DNA of 22,070 nucleotides from positions 1 to 22,070 of IMG/VR virus record IMGVR_UViG_3300019828_000317; one strand, written 5' to 3'. Below the pieces are notes generated by a model. The model was not told the DNA's origin and did no database searches. It saw only the letters and a program-made list of their open reading frames with translations. Position numbers and translations under genes: made by a program. Shown here in pieces: positions 2,129 to 21,273 of the stretch. The DNA is from a virus. Each line of letters starts with the position of its first letter. The first letter of the stretch is position 1.

Positions 2129-3021
2129 TGGCTGCAACAGATTACACACAAACAACAAGACGAGCTCCTTTTATAGAAGCGGCTCAAGAAAATTACGTAG
2201 ATTTATTAACACAACAAGTTGGTAGAGCTCCTGGCTCTGCTGGTGTACCAACGTTAGGTCAACTTGGACCACAGATTGCTGGACAAAACGTTTTAACACA
2301 ACAAGCTCAACAACAGGCAGCTACTCAAGGGGGTTTAGGTGCATTAACTTTTGATCCCACAACAGGTGCTGTAACAGGTACAGGTCAAGGTACAGGTGTC
2401 TCAGGGTACCAACCTTACTTGACTCAAGCAGGTCAGTACTCAGGACCACAAGCTTACCAACAATTTATGTCGCCTTATCAACAAGATATTATAGACACAA
2501 CTCTTACAGATTTTGATTACCAAACTGCACAAGGTGTTCCTCAATTAGCAGCGAATGCAATTAATGCGGGGGCTTTTGGTGGAGGACGTGAGGGAGTAGC
2601 TTCAGCTCAATACGCTTCAGATAGAGGTATGGATAGAGCACAGTTACAAGCTACTATGTTAGGTCAAGGATTTACTCAAGCAAACATGTTAGCGAACCAA
2701 GGTTTTGATCAACAAAGAAATTTAGCATCATTACAACCTTCTTTGGCCGCGTCTTCAATACAACAACTGGGTGCAGCTGGAACAGGAAACTTAGCTTACC
2801 AACAAGCTTTATTAGATGCTCAACAACAACAAAATCAACTAGCTTACAATGAACCTTTAAGTAGAATCCAGGCTTTCGGATCAGGGATTGCAGGACAAGC
2901 AAGTGGAACACCTACTACTGTTACAAATCAAGCTATGGGACAACAAGGTGGGCCTTTATCACAAGCTTTATCTGCTGGACTAAGTGCTTATGGTTTAGGT
3001 AGCATTTTCGGAGGAAATTAA
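2128..3021 (+). CDS. Gln/Gly/Ala-rich virion protein, 297 aa
   Basis: The start ATG overlaps the preceding stop (TAATG), as does the stop with the next start. The protein is rich in Gln, Gly and Ala and has almost no Lys. The middle (about 140-195) has NAGAFGGGREGV followed by alternating RAQLQ/GFTQAN/GFDQQR segments, a pattern I associate with phage structural proteins of this gene neighbourhood. There is a poly-Gln patch near 231-237, and the C-terminus is small and hydrophobic (ALSAGLSAYGLGSIFGG). No enzyme motif is visible. By position and size it could be the counterpart of the small internal-core protein of T7-like phages, but this is analogy of layout, not homology. Confidence 0.75.
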   Translation: MAATDYTQTTRRAPFIEAAQENYVDLLTQQVGRAPGSAGVPTLGQLGPQIAGQNVLTQQAQQQAATQGGLGALTFDPTTGAVTGTGQGTGVSGYQPYLTQAGQYSGPQAYQQFMSPYQQDIIDTTLTDFDYQTAQGVPQLAANAINAGAFGGGREGVASAQYASDRGMDRAQLQATMLGQGFTQANMLANQGFDQQRNLASLQPSLAASSIQQLGAAGTGNLAYQQALLDAQQQQNQLAYNEPLSRIQAFGSGIAGQASGTPTTVTNQAMGQQGGPLSQALSAGLSAYGLGSIFGGN

Positions 3022-4529
3022 TGTATTATAAAAGACCATCCTTTAAAAGAGGCGGATCTACAGGGATTGCTCAACTAACTCCTAGCAGACAAGGATATGC
3101 TGGTGGTGGAAACATAGCTCCTAGAGTTCATGCTAGTATGGGTTTCCCAAATTTTGGTGTAGGTCAAGGAGATAATACAGCTTACCAGAACTATATGAAA
3201 AACGTAAGAGAAGACAGGGCTGCACCTATTAGAGAAACAAGCGGTATAGAAGAAATTTTAAGCGGTTCGGATAACAGAAGATCACAATTTTCAGAAACGA
3301 TGACTGTTGAAGACCTTTATAAAAAAAGAGGTGAAAAACTTAAAAGATCGGCAGATCGGGTAGAAGAAACATTTGGAGGTGGTAACACTTACATTGATAG
3401 AAATAATATTAAAAGAAGTAGACAAACGGGAGAAGTTATAACTGACACTGCTAGTAAGTCTGGTATTGGTCAACTAACGTTCACAGAAGCTGATGACATA
3501 AGACAAAACTATCAATTTAACCAAGCGGATGAAATTGTAGAAAGAGCTAAGGACGATAAAACAACAATTGAATTAGGTGCACAGGATAACTCTATTACTT
3601 TAGATCCATTAAAAGAAATTGAAAGAGAAAAAAATTTTTTAAATAATCTATTGCAAAATAAAGGATTGGAAAGAGGTGAAGCTGCATTGGTTGCAGCAAA
3701 AGCGATTGGAACAGCAGGGTCCTTTAAAGATAAACTAGATGCTGCGGTTGATATGGCATTACCTATTGTTAGAAAAAGAAATGAACAAGATAAAGCTGTT
3801 ACATTGACTGCATACAAAGCATTTAAAGAAAAAGAAGCAGCACAAGCGAAAGCACAAGCTGATGCAGGTGAACCTACTCGTGAGTTAAAAAACATTAATT
3901 TAATGGCACAAGCTATAAAAAACCAAGGGGACAAAAGAGACCTTTCAGTTATTCGAGATGAATTAGTAGTTAGCCAAAGTGGAATGAACTCCGATGTTAA
4001 AGAGCTACTGTATAAATCAACTGGTAACGTTATAGAGGCAGTAGAGGATATAGACAAACAACGAAAACTTCTTGCCGTAGAAAACGCTAAAAAGAAACCT
4101 AACGAAAAAAATATAGAAACAATAACAGAAAAAATTAGAAAGTATGAAGCGGATTTAAAAAGGATACAACTTTTAGGTAAAGATTCTTTTGATAAAATAT
4201 TTGGTGATCTTACAGAAGGTTATTTTGCAGAAGGTGGAAGAGTAAAAAGACAATTAGGTTCACCTGAAACAGGAGAACAAATAGTAGAGACAGAAGATAC
4301 TGTAGTAAGTATGCCTGGAGGTTCTGTACCAGAAAAACCTGTTTTAAATTTATCTTATGATGAATTAAGAAATAGATTACCTAAATCAATCACGGATGAT
4401 ATTATACAACTTTTAGCAAATAGTGAAGAGGCTTTACAAGAATTTGCATATATTACATCTCAAGATGATGTAAATAGTTTTAATGTAAAATATGGAGTTA
4501 ACTTAATCATTCCTCCAACAACTGGATAG
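3021..4529 (+). CDS. Coiled-coil virion protein with GGRV-GSPE block, 502 aa
   Basis: Starts at the ATG overlapping the previous TAA. The N-terminus is Gly/Arg-rich (FKRGGSTGIAQL, then GYAGGGNIAPRV). Residues about 95-400 are strongly charged and look helical or coiled-coil, with many Lys/Glu/Ala. Near residue 403 it carries AEGGRVKRQLGSPETGEQ, which matches a block (AKGGRVSRKFGSPEEGER) in the GGRIG protein two genes upstream, so the two share a module. No catalytic motif, signal peptide or membrane segment is seen. Its place between a small Q-rich protein and the 1421-aa giant suggests an internal or ejected virion component. The function is otherwise unknown. Confidence 0.75.
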   Translation: MYYKRPSFKRGGSTGIAQLTPSRQGYAGGGNIAPRVHASMGFPNFGVGQGDNTAYQNYMKNVREDRAAPIRETSGIEEILSGSDNRRSQFSETMTVEDLYKKRGEKLKRSADRVEETFGGGNTYIDRNNIKRSRQTGEVITDTASKSGIGQLTFTEADDIRQNYQFNQADEIVERAKDDKTTIELGAQDNSITLDPLKEIEREKNFLNNLLQNKGLERGEAALVAAKAIGTAGSFKDKLDAAVDMALPIVRKRNEQDKAVTLTAYKAFKEKEAAQAKAQADAGEPTRELKNINLMAQAIKNQGDKRDLSVIRDELVVSQSGMNSDVKELLYKSTGNVIEAVEDIDKQRKLLAVENAKKKPNEKNIETITEKIRKYEADLKRIQLLGKDSFDKIFGDLTEGYFAEGGRVKRQLGSPETGEQIVETEDTVVSMPGGSVPEKPVLNLSYDELRNRLPKSITDDIIQLLANSEEALQEFAYITSQDDVNSFNVKYGVNLIIPPTTG

Positions 4530-9495: not shown

Positions 9496-9671
9496 TGAAA
9501 AGGTCTGCAGCACAAAGAATCGAAGATCATGAAAAACTTTGTAGAATAATGCAGAAACAAACGTTTGAGCAAATAAAAGAAGTTAAAGAAAGAATTTATA
9601 GAATGGAAAAGATGATAATTAGCGGAGCAATAGGTATAATAATTGCTTTACTTCTCAACGTGATAAAATGA
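9495..9671 (+). CDS. Small coiled-coil plus C-terminal membrane protein, 58 aa
   Basis: The ATG overlaps the previous stop (TAATG), and the TGA at 9669-9671 overlaps the next ATG at 9668 (ATGA). Residues 5-40 form a charged amphipathic helix with heptad-like spacing. Residues 40-57 (MIISGAIGIIIALLLNVI) are a single membrane span ending in one Lys. This architecture matches small XhlA-type or holin-accessory phage proteins. A true holin role is uncertain because the endolysin lies about 10 kb away. Confidence 0.7.
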   Translation: MKRSAAQRIEDHEKLCRIMQKQTFEQIKEVKERIYRMEKMIISGAIGIIIALLLNVIK

Positions 9672-10045
9672 AGAATAGTTTACTCGTACATAAGCACTTA
9701 ATTGTGCGAGCTGAATCCATTAAACCTCCTAAAGATGAAGAACAACTTAAAGAATGGATGAAAGAATTTGTAGATTCTATCAACATGAAAATATTTATGG
9801 GTCCTTATGTTAAGTATTGTAACATGGAAGGTAACCGTGGAATAACAGCTGTTGCAATCATTGAAACTTCACACATTGCTATGCATATTTGGGACGAAGT
9901 AAGTCCTGCTTTAATGCAATTTGATGTCTACAGTTGTAGTGAACTGAATGTAGAAAACATTTGTAACAAAATTAAACAAGACTTTGATATAGAAAAAATA
10001 GAGTACAAATTTCTTAACCGTGAAACTGGACTCCAAGATATTTAA
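9668..10045 (+). CDS. speD: S-adenosylmethionine decarboxylase (SpeD)-like proenzyme
   Basis: 125 aa, the usual size of prokaryotic class 1b SpeD. The self-processing site is visible as ETSHIAMH: Ser68 would become the pyruvoyl group after cleavage of the Glu/Thr-Ser region. His73 matches His68 and Cys90 matches Cys83 of the Thermotoga enzyme. The Ser-to-Cys distance is 22 here against 20 there, so there is a two-residue insertion before the catalytic Cys. Classical activity removes CO2 from S-adenosylmethionine to feed spermidine synthesis in the cytoplasm. Some SpeD homologues, phage ones included, are reported to act instead on arginine or ornithine, so the substrate is open. No speE or other polyamine gene is in the window. 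The start overlaps the upstream small membrane gene, and the 3' end overlaps the opposing helicase gene by 4 bp. Confidence 0.85.
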   Translation: MKNSLLVHKHLIVRAESIKPPKDEEQLKEWMKEFVDSINMKIFMGPYVKYCNMEGNRGITAVAIIETSHIAMHIWDEVSPALMQFDVYSCSELNVENICNKIKQDFDIEKIEYKFLNRETGLQDI

Positions 10046-11472
10046 ATCCAGTCTTTAAGTTCTTCTCCCATTACTTCACTAGCGATATTAATCTTTTTAC
10101 GTAAAGCTTTTACAATTCTTTCATCTACCGTTTTCTCAGCAATAATGTCTATGTAAGTCATTTTTCTAGTCTGACCAATACGATTTATTCTAGCCTCACT
10201 TTGAGTACGTTTCTCAAGGTCATAACCATTAGAATAATAAATCATAACGTTAGCTTCTGTTAAAGTAATTCCATAGCCACCGGTTTGAGGGGTACCTACC
10301 AAGAATCTAATTTTAGAGTCTGGGTCCTGAATTTCTTTAATAGCTTTTTGTCTGTCATCGGTAGAAGTGGATCCATAATAAGTCATCACGGAACCCGGAT
10401 ATACTTTTTCAACAGCTTTAACAATTGAATCTATATCGTGTCTCCAGTGGGCCCAAATAATAGCCTTACCTTCCACCTCTTCTAATATATCCATCAACGC
10501 ATTTATTCTTTCGTTTTTAATTATTTTAAGAGTACCATCGTCTGCTTTAAAGTGACCACAGGTAATTTGTTGAAGTCTCATTAGTTGTACTAATGCTGTC
10601 GAAGTAGTCATTAACTTACCTTCCATTTGAGCAAGAGCTACCTTACTCATTTGATCATAAAGTTTTTGTTGCTCAGGACTTAGTTGAATAATTCTTTTCT
10701 GATAAGTATATTCAGGTAAATCTAAACAATCTTCTTTAAGAACACGATCAGAAAAAGTACTTATTTTTTCTGAAAGTTCTCCTAGATTTTGATAACCAGT
10801 AACTACTTGGACACTGTGTGTAGGTAATCTCATAGTAGTCATTTTGGCATATCTAGTTCTAAACGCATAATAAGAAGTAAAGTCTAGTAAACTTTCATCT
10901 AAAAACTCGCATTGTTTATATAAGTCTAAAGGTGATTTAGTAACTGGAGATCCTGTAAGGATTCTTCTGTAGTTTGCAAACTCTCCTAAAGAACAAATAT
11001 GTTTAGTACGTTTAGCATCTGGGTTTTTAATAGTAGTAGACTCATCTATTGCCATTAATGTTCGATGACATCTTAGAAATTTAGCAGCAAATTCTACACC
11101 TTTAGAAGTACTAAAAGCATCTACATTCATAATTAAAATATGTAAATCTTCACCTGGTTCAAATAAAGTATCTAATTTTAATTGTTGTCCTTTATTTATA
11201 TTAGCTTGCCATAAAACCATTTTTTTATCTATATGGTCTACCATATGAATAGGGATTTCAGAATCAAACCAATTTTTATAAACTCCTTTAGGTGCTACTA
11301 AAAGGAGGCCATTAATTTTACCTTTATCATAAAGCATAGAGACATTGTCTATTAATACTTTAGATTTTCCTGTACCCATTTCCATAAAGTAAGCAAACAC
11401 TTCTTTATTCCATGATTTTTCTAACGCAGTTATTTGATGCGCGTATGGTTTTGTTTTAAATTTATAGTTCAT
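10042..11472 (-). CDS. SNF2-family (SF2) DNA helicase/ATPase
   Basis: 476 aa from the ATG at 11472. The frame stays open to 11583, but the MNYKFKTKPYAHQ start is preferred: it begins right at the helicase Q-like region and has a purine-rich site (AGAAAGAAG) just upstream. An earlier start would add a hydrophobic leader overlapping the promoter and the divergent gene. Motifs: Walker A EMGTGKS (31-37), motif II DEST (143-146, in place of DEAH/DESH), motif III LTGSP (172-176), helicase C with GGYGITLTEANVMIYY, and motif VI QSEARINRIGQTR. The layout is that of compact phage SNF2-like translocases acting on duplex DNA in replication or recombination. It is the only leftward gene and has its own candidate promoter at 11487-11528. 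Confidence 0.9.
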   Translation of the reverse strand: MNYKFKTKPYAHQITALEKSWNKEVFAYFMEMGTGKSKVLIDNVSMLYDKGKINGLLLVAPKGVYKNWFDSEIPIHMVDHIDKKMVLWQANINKGQQLKLDTLFEPGEDLHILIMNVDAFSTSKGVEFAAKFLRCHRTLMAIDESTTIKNPDAKRTKHICSLGEFANYRRILTGSPVTKSPLDLYKQCEFLDESLLDFTSYYAFRTRYAKMTTMRLPTHSVQVVTGYQNLGELSEKISTFSDRVLKEDCLDLPEYTYQKRIIQLSPEQQKLYDQMSKVALAQMEGKLMTTSTALVQLMRLQQITCGHFKADDGTLKIIKNERINALMDILEEVEGKAIIWAHWRHDIDSIVKAVEKVYPGSVMTYYGSTSTDDRQKAIKEIQDPDSKIRFLVGTPQTGGYGITLTEANVMIYYSNGYDLEKRTQSEARINRIGQTRKMTYIDIIAEKTVDERIVKALRKKINIASEVMGEELKDWI

Positions 11473-11486
11473 AATATTTCTTCTTT

Positions 11487-11528
11487 CTATTGACAGTGAT
11501 ACCATAACCCTGTAGTAGATGTCAATAG
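11487..11528. promoter_or_regulatory. Perfect 9-bp inverted repeat with face-to-face TTGACA boxes
   Basis: CTATTGACA (11487-11495) and TGTCAATAG (11520-11528) are perfect reverse complements separated by 24 bp, in the gap between the leftward helicase gene and the rightward 11538 gene. Each arm contains a consensus -35 TTGACA, one pointing right and one left. Leftward, TTGACA-N18-TATCAC is a reasonable promoter for the helicase. Rightward, TTGACA-N17-TAGTAG has a poor -10. Both would transcribe across the same 42 bp, so they would be mutually exclusive, or the repeat may be the operator of a dimeric repressor. Confidence 0.55.
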
Positions 11529-11537
11529 GAAAGTTAT

Positions 11538-11930
11538 ATGGGATTAACAACATTAAATACAATACCAACACAAAGCAATCCATCGGTTGTTTATATTATA
11601 CAAGAATTACCCGGTACTAAAGCAGGTGCTCCTAAATTTAATATTATGGGTGCGCAAAAATATGGTACTTTAAAAACATTATTACCAGAACACTCACAAA
11701 TTATTTTGTCTCCAGGACCTTTAATTTTTAAATTAAGGAAACTTTTAGATAAATATACTACTAAGGATTTCTTACTACTTACAGGCGATCCCGCAATTAT
11801 AGGTGTTGCGTGTTCAATTGTGGCAGATAAAACTGGTGGTAAATTTAATCTATTAAAATGGGATAGACAGGAAAAAATGTATTACCCAATAGAAATTAAT
11901 TTATATGAAAAAGGAAATCTCGAAGAATAA
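11538..11930 (+). CDS. Conserved-looking phage protein of unknown function, 130 aa
   Basis: An AGGAAAG site at 11527-11533 is well placed for the ATG. The sequence alternates hydrophobic strands and short helices. Its features are VVYIIQELPGTKAGAPKFN near the N-terminus, a LSPGPLIFKLRKLLDKY helix, and DFLLLTGDPAIIGVACSIVAD, followed by a basic/aromatic segment KWDRQEKMYYPI. The LLLTGDPAIIG segment looks like a small alpha/beta fold, but no nucleotide-binding motif is complete. It is the first gene of the rightward replication block and could be an early gene. I recognise the type from pelagic phage genomes only as a hypothetical protein. Confidence 0.75.
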   Translation: MGLTTLNTIPTQSNPSVVYIIQELPGTKAGAPKFNIMGAQKYGTLKTLLPEHSQIILSPGPLIFKLRKLLDKYTTKDFLLLTGDPAIIGVACSIVADKTGGKFNLLKWDRQEKMYYPIEINLYEKGNLEE

Positions 11931-11932
11931 GC

Positions 11933-11960
11933 TTGACATAGGATATTATGACATTATATT
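11933..11960 (+). promoter_or_regulatory. Sigma70-like promoter of replication module
   Basis: TTGACA (11933-11938), 16-bp spacer, TATATT (11955-11960, 5/6 match to TATAAT). It starts three bases after the stop of the 130-aa gene and about 40 bases before the 12003 ATG. The spacer holds TAGGATATTAT (11939-11949), an 11-mer repeated exactly in the promoter at 21041-21074. Likely read by host RNA polymerase and driving the coiled-coil, SSB-like, primase and helicase genes. Confidence 0.65.
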
Positions 11961-21102: not shown

Positions 21103-21273
21103 ATGACTGACTTTAATAAGTACAAAAACATATCTATCAAATTAGATGTGTACGCAAAGATAGATAAGATTAGTAAAGTCTTGGTACCTGATGATCCAAA
21201 GATCTCACGTGCTCAAGTGGTGACTATTCTTGTCAACAAGGAAGCAAAGAGACTAAACGGAAAACTAAAATAA
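21103..21273 (+). CDS. Ribbon-helix-helix (Arc/CopG-like) DNA-binding protein, 56 aa
   Basis: GAAAGGTTATAACAA precedes the ATG. The strand NISIKLD (9-15) is followed by a first helix VYAKIDKISKVL (16-27) and a second helix ISRAQVVTILVNKEAKRL (34-51), the RHH order and length. The alternating polar residues on the strand (Asn9, Ser11, Lys13) would contact the DNA major groove in a dimer. As first gene of the operon behind a promoter with flanking inverted repeats, it may be an autorepressor. Confidence 0.6.
   Translation: MTDFNKYKNISIKLDVYAKIDKISKVLVPDDPKISRAQVVTILVNKEAKRLNGKLK

Follow-up and report, generated by a model that had tools for sequence, protein, structure and literature searches.

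Two probable antiparallel, interlocked sigma70-type promoters between divergent helicase and gp32-like genes of HTVC023P-type pelagiphages

Overlapping divergent promoters and the pelagiphage gap

The tetA and tetR genes of Tn10 are read from divergent promoters that overlap within a short intergenic stretch, under the control of TetR acting through operators. In the prokaryotic bidirectional promoters described by Warman, Grainger and colleagues, the -10 elements are shared or overlapping and the two transcription starts lie 7-25 bp apart, commonly 18 bp (PMC12825309, PMC10268837). The nearest precedent that we found for the locus reported here is the Pc/Pr pair of pLS20, in which two antiparallel promoters likewise occupy the same DNA and the polymerase itself is a possible regulator (PMC4207663).

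We analysed a virus record of 22,070 bases (the window), which is classed here as a relative of the HTVC023P-type pelagiphages because its best named-phage matches are Pelagibacter phage HTVC027P, phage 023Pt_psg01 and HTVC023P. The hosts of pelagiphages are the commonest bacteria of the ocean. The feature of interest lies in a 65-bp gap (11473-11537) between two divergent genes, both as originally predicted, with the early-type label of the second being putative: a leftward gene (10042-11472, minus strand, start at 11472) for an SNF2-type superfamily II helicase (PF00176, 6.6e-19; PF00271, 1.2e-11; phrog_62) and a rightward gene (11538-11930, plus strand, start at 11538) for a Pam3_gp32-like protein (PF23992, 6.3e-30) with no assigned function. 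The rightward order begins with this PF23992 gene and continues with DUF7307, Pam3_Gp34, an AEP-TOTE primase, a UvrD helicase and a family-A DNA polymerase. At its other end, the helicase gene is met by a convergent S-adenosylmethionine decarboxylase gene (9668-10045), which overlaps it by 4 bases. Elsewhere in the window, the proteins encoded at 263-2128 and 3021-4529 carry recurring GGRIG or GGR motifs (e.g., NGGRIGYG, QGGRIGFK and NGGRIGLK), and a 56-aa protein encoded at 21103-21273 looks ribbon-helix-helix-like by eye and has no Pfam or PHROG match.

Inside the gap, CTATTGACA (11487-11495, plus strand) and TGTCAATAG (11520-11528, minus strand) form the perfect 9-bp inverted repeat CTATTGACA-N24-TGTCAATAG at 11487-11528. 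Two TTGACA boxes, one in the left arm on the plus strand (11490-11495) and one in the right arm on the minus strand (11525-11520), point inward at each other across 24 bp, exactly as had been claimed. The left box would serve as the -35 element of a rightward promoter, and the right box as that of the leftward helicase promoter.

As in the E. coli bidirectional promoters, the DNA is pseudo-symmetric, a sigma70 polymerase could engage it in either orientation to make divergent RNAs, and binding in the two orientations is predicted to be mutually exclusive. Unlike those promoters, the gap has separate -10 elements and two consensus -35 elements that face each other, and about 35 bp would separate the expected starts in the window (median of 36 bp in clusters with two arms), outside the range of 7-25 bp. 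One group of relatives (L118, with an estimated 19 bp) and HTVC027P look closer to the form with a shared -10, with a forward promoter that is statistically unsupported. At pLS20, each -10 coincides with the -35 of the other promoter, and a regulator, RcoLS20, is known together with flanking operators (PMC4207663); here, in contrast, the boxes are nested, and no DNA-binding regulator was recognised among the scanned proteins of the window, which covers only part of a larger genome. A short gap with divergent promoters that overlap is also a feature of tetA/tetR, whereas the TetR/operator control of that system has no counterpart shown in the pelagiphage gap. A literature search returned no report of such a promoter arrangement in pelagiphages, and judging from the sequences compared, it represents a known class of promoter in tidy form and is kept across many relatives.

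Conservation of the arms and their -10 elements

A 9-bp inverted repeat is by itself a weak signal and only mildly unusual. Perfect inverted repeats of at least 9 bp with loops of 3-40 nt appeared in 153 of 20,000 shuffles of the gap (0.8%); the exact pattern, which was defined post hoc, was absent from 100 dinucleotide shuffles. The significance of the arms derives from their conservation among relatives and not from the repeat. With the gp32-like protein and the helicase as queries, 158 loci were gathered, which comprised 105 distinct gap sequences and helicases that were 71-100% identical. The original prediction had proposed a search for the same symmetric pair in relatives, and this search was successful: GTCAA of the right arm is kept in 101 of the 105 orthologous gaps, and TTGAC of the left arm accompanies it in 76, with an inter-arm distance of 23-30 bp, mostly 25-27 bp, in gaps that have both arms. 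Phage 023Pt_psg01 carries the arm pair at the same place. Among the four gaps scored as lacking GTCAA, one (L107) has its flank missing, and that of HTVC027P is cut at the record end, where the following base, the first of the gp01 ATG, completes the motif if the record is circular; L149 and HTVC023P lack GTCAA. In full-length relatives (57-60 kb), the helicase/gp32-like gap holds no more than one such pair; a loose arm pattern gives chance matches elsewhere in some records, and a control pattern finds as many or more. On a quick helicase tree with several weakly supported forks, the two-arm, one-arm and no-arm states require 7 changes, the two-arm state is seen both in the ingroup branches that diverge deepest and throughout the window's clade (30 of 30), and several separate groups have lost the left arm and kept the right one. 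At one locus (L069), the helicase start and the gp32-like gene are about 580 bases apart and both arms remain, suggesting an insertion just beyond the putative promoter pair.

Elements at the -10 position were sought by a model-free positional test, in which the position of TAT relative to each -35 was weighted over 39 sequence clusters and compared with 500 shuffles. This test was adopted after a strict E. coli -10 matrix had given weak-to-no signal, the rightward -10s scoring on a par with shuffled spacers (mean p 0.49) and the leftward ones only modestly above them. Downstream of the rightward -35, TAT peaks at 17 bp in 50% of clusters, against 23% as the highest value at any offset in the shuffles; for the leftward -35 the peak spans 17 and 18 bp, with 36% and 42% of clusters, again against a highest shuffled value of 23%. 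Since the clusters are related by descent, these shuffles overstate the certainty somewhat. The leftward promoter of the window has an extended -10, TGG-TATCAC (11496-11504, minus strand), at a spacer of 18; TGnTA occurs at a spacer of 17-18 in 38/38 close relatives and in 11 of the 39 clusters overall (null mean 1.0, maximum 4.9). The rightward candidate (11511-11518, plus strand) is poor, being either TGTAGT (11511-11516, spacer 15) or TAGTAG (11513-11518, spacer 17), a place that is taken by TATAAT or TATAAC in many close relatives. Both -10s of the window match TATAAT at 4/6 positions only, and a promoter scan of the window listed neither of the two putative interlocked promoters. An anchoring test, which asked if the -10 keeps its distance to its own -35 or to the opposite arm, did not discriminate.

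Lineages that lack the left arm give a further view of the helicase promoter, which often appears near-perfect in them: the L102 and L148 groups have TTGACA-18-TATAAT, and none of 200 shuffles was as good. No forward promoter in such lineages was backed by shuffle statistics; TTTACT/TTTATC boxes with a shared -10, picked out by eye, were not supported (shuffle p 0.085-0.65).

These data suggest that the two boxes are real -35 elements, as originally claimed, with a -10-like sequence at proper spacing after both across relatives. The gap thereby shows the arrangement of overlapping divergent sigma70-type promoters, namely antiparallel -35/-10 pairs on the same DNA between divergent genes, with the -35 elements evident in the window and the -10 elements across relatives. 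From these comparisons, the leftward helicase promoter is well supported and the rightward one moderately so, and in the window's clade the helicase promoter is the better supported of the two, given its extended -10.

The arms are bordered by CTTTC and GAAAG, which are likely the ribosome-binding sites of the two genes. The helicase site is probably AGAAAGAAG (11480-11488, minus strand), with CTTTC left of the -35 in 39/39 clusters, and that of the gp32-like gene is probably AGGAAAG (11527-11533, plus strand), with GAAAG no more than 20 nt to the right of the -35 in 36/39 clusters. The 16S rRNA of alphaproteobacteria terminates in a CUUUCU-like tail. At two loci (L080 and L062), AGAAAG still adjoins the -35 box and the helicase start codon lies about 17-30 nt away, farther than usual.

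Proposed working and alternative readings

We consider it likely that the feature consists of two antiparallel, interlocked host sigma70-type promoters. Each TTGACA would overlap the region where the opposite promoter starts its RNA, with both -10s lying between the -35 boxes. From the -10 positions, leftward transcription is expected to start at 11488-11490 (minus strand), about 16 nt before the helicase ATG, and rightward transcription at 11523-11525 (plus strand), about 13-15 nt before the gp32-like ATG. The predicted starts, near 11489 and 11524, would yield diverging RNAs with leaders of 13-17 nt, one for the helicase and the other for the gp32-like gene. Host RNA polymerase, presumably with a sigma70-type factor, would occupy the site in only one of the two orientations at any moment; simultaneous binding of two polymerases is unlikely because each expected start lies inside the opposite -35 or next to it. 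In its simplest working, the pair would provide low-to-moderate basal transcription of both genes from minimal DNA, and real competition would arise only once one direction turned strong. The inverted repeat would then be the appearance of two face-to-face TTGACA boxes, its 9-bp extension belonging to the window's clade. The relative HTVC027P lacks its own RNA polymerase and uses that of the host throughout (PMC12753301), which fits host-type promoters; RNA-seq data of infection by this phage, whose helicase is gp87 and whose gap has no left TTGACA, are public (PRJNA1253180). A conserved host-type promoter pair at the start of the replication module would offer a concrete, testable entry to the transcription of these phages, and the relatives, with two -35 arms, one arm or possibly a shared -10, may serve as a natural series for the evolution of antiparallel promoters.

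Whether such a pair forms an either/or switch is a separate matter. It had been proposed that polymerase bound in one direction silences the other as a built-in device, so that the helicase or the gp32-like protein is expressed and never both, a reading that is compatible with two interlocked promoters rather than exclusive of them. The expected start of each promoter within or beside the -35 of the other would suit such a switch, and overlapping divergent promoters may form switches if they are unequal and regulated, as in pLS20 Pc/Pr (PMC4207663). However, five E. coli bidirectional promoters that were tested are too weak at the basal level to compete, and interference shows up only on activation (PMC12825309). 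In the pelagiphages, moreover, the rightward -10 of the window is poor, no regulator was found among the window proteins scanned, and the arrangement is altered in several lineages. The genes past gp32 also have a conserved promoter of their own, TTGACA-16-TATATT (11933-11960, plus strand), which was found by the promoter scan with 11/12 matches and is kept in 38/38 close relatives; it lies between the gp32-like and gp33-like genes and serves those from 12003 on (gp33-like, gp34-like, primase and others), and therefore the divergent pair alone does not choose between helicase and replication. The HTVC027P study gives all early genes of that phage as having unknown functions (PMC12753301), which suggests that the annotated helicase of that phage is not early. 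The claim of a built-in switch is thus not supported, and we regard it as rather unlikely. A related and bolder reading, that the interlocked promoters act by themselves as a timing or choice device between helicase and gp32-like protein, through occupancy alone or with one phage factor, and have been repeatedly reshaped toward a shared -10 in some lineages, seems to us quite unlikely as well.

The symmetry had also been thought to suit a dimeric repressor, and an operator bound by such a repressor, or by an activator, on the symmetric arms would explain the perfect 9-bp symmetry in the window's clade and the symmetric CTTTC/GAAAG flanks found in nearly all clusters. These flanks, however, read as ribosome-binding sites, and the sixth base of the arms shows no significant co-variation (Fisher p 0.195), while the base that precedes TTGAC is identical on the two sides in only 10/30 clusters, being asymmetric in most. 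Arm symmetry beyond the hexamers is for these two reasons regarded as a clade trait. Neither a symmetry kept by co-variation nor a fixed spacing was found among the relatives: the inter-arm distance is variable, several lineages have lost the left arm alone and retained the right one, and no complete relative has more than one copy at the helicase/gp32-like gap. Because of this lack of significant co-variation, the variable spacing, the separate loss of the left arm and the single copy, two interlocked promoters are favoured over an operator or a hairpin; the suitability for a dimeric repressor is disfavoured, and an operator appears improbable.

An RNA hairpin formed by the two arms, acting as an attenuator or in translation control, is very improbable. 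Either strand folds better than its shuffles (z -2.5 to -3.2), but neither RNA would hold both arms, because the expected transcripts start inside the far arm, and no significant arm co-variation and no Rfam match were found, the left arm being gone in many relatives. A chance inverted repeat of no importance, to which the six repeats of 9 bp or longer that the 22-kb window contains (maximum loop 40) and the chance frequency of TTGACA (15 against 15.7 expected) might lend some colour, is already contradicted by the conservation over 105 gaps and the positional -10 signals and is hardly credible.

A second locus with the same design

The design CTTTCTATTGACA...TGTCAA...GAAAGG was also found at 1506-1545 in L202, 1416-1456 in L185, 4593-4634 in L213, 7718-7759 in L219 and 4384-4425 in L223. 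It sits there between two other small divergent genes, which are not homologous to the helicase and gp32-like pair, and -10-like boxes occur in both directions; in the three records checked for this (L202, L185 and L219), it is close to the terminase. The L202 terminase shares 60-67% identity with the terminases of HTVC023P-type phages; given this, the idea that the terminase-side loci belong to unrelated phages was dropped, and more likely they are another gene pair carried by that phage type.
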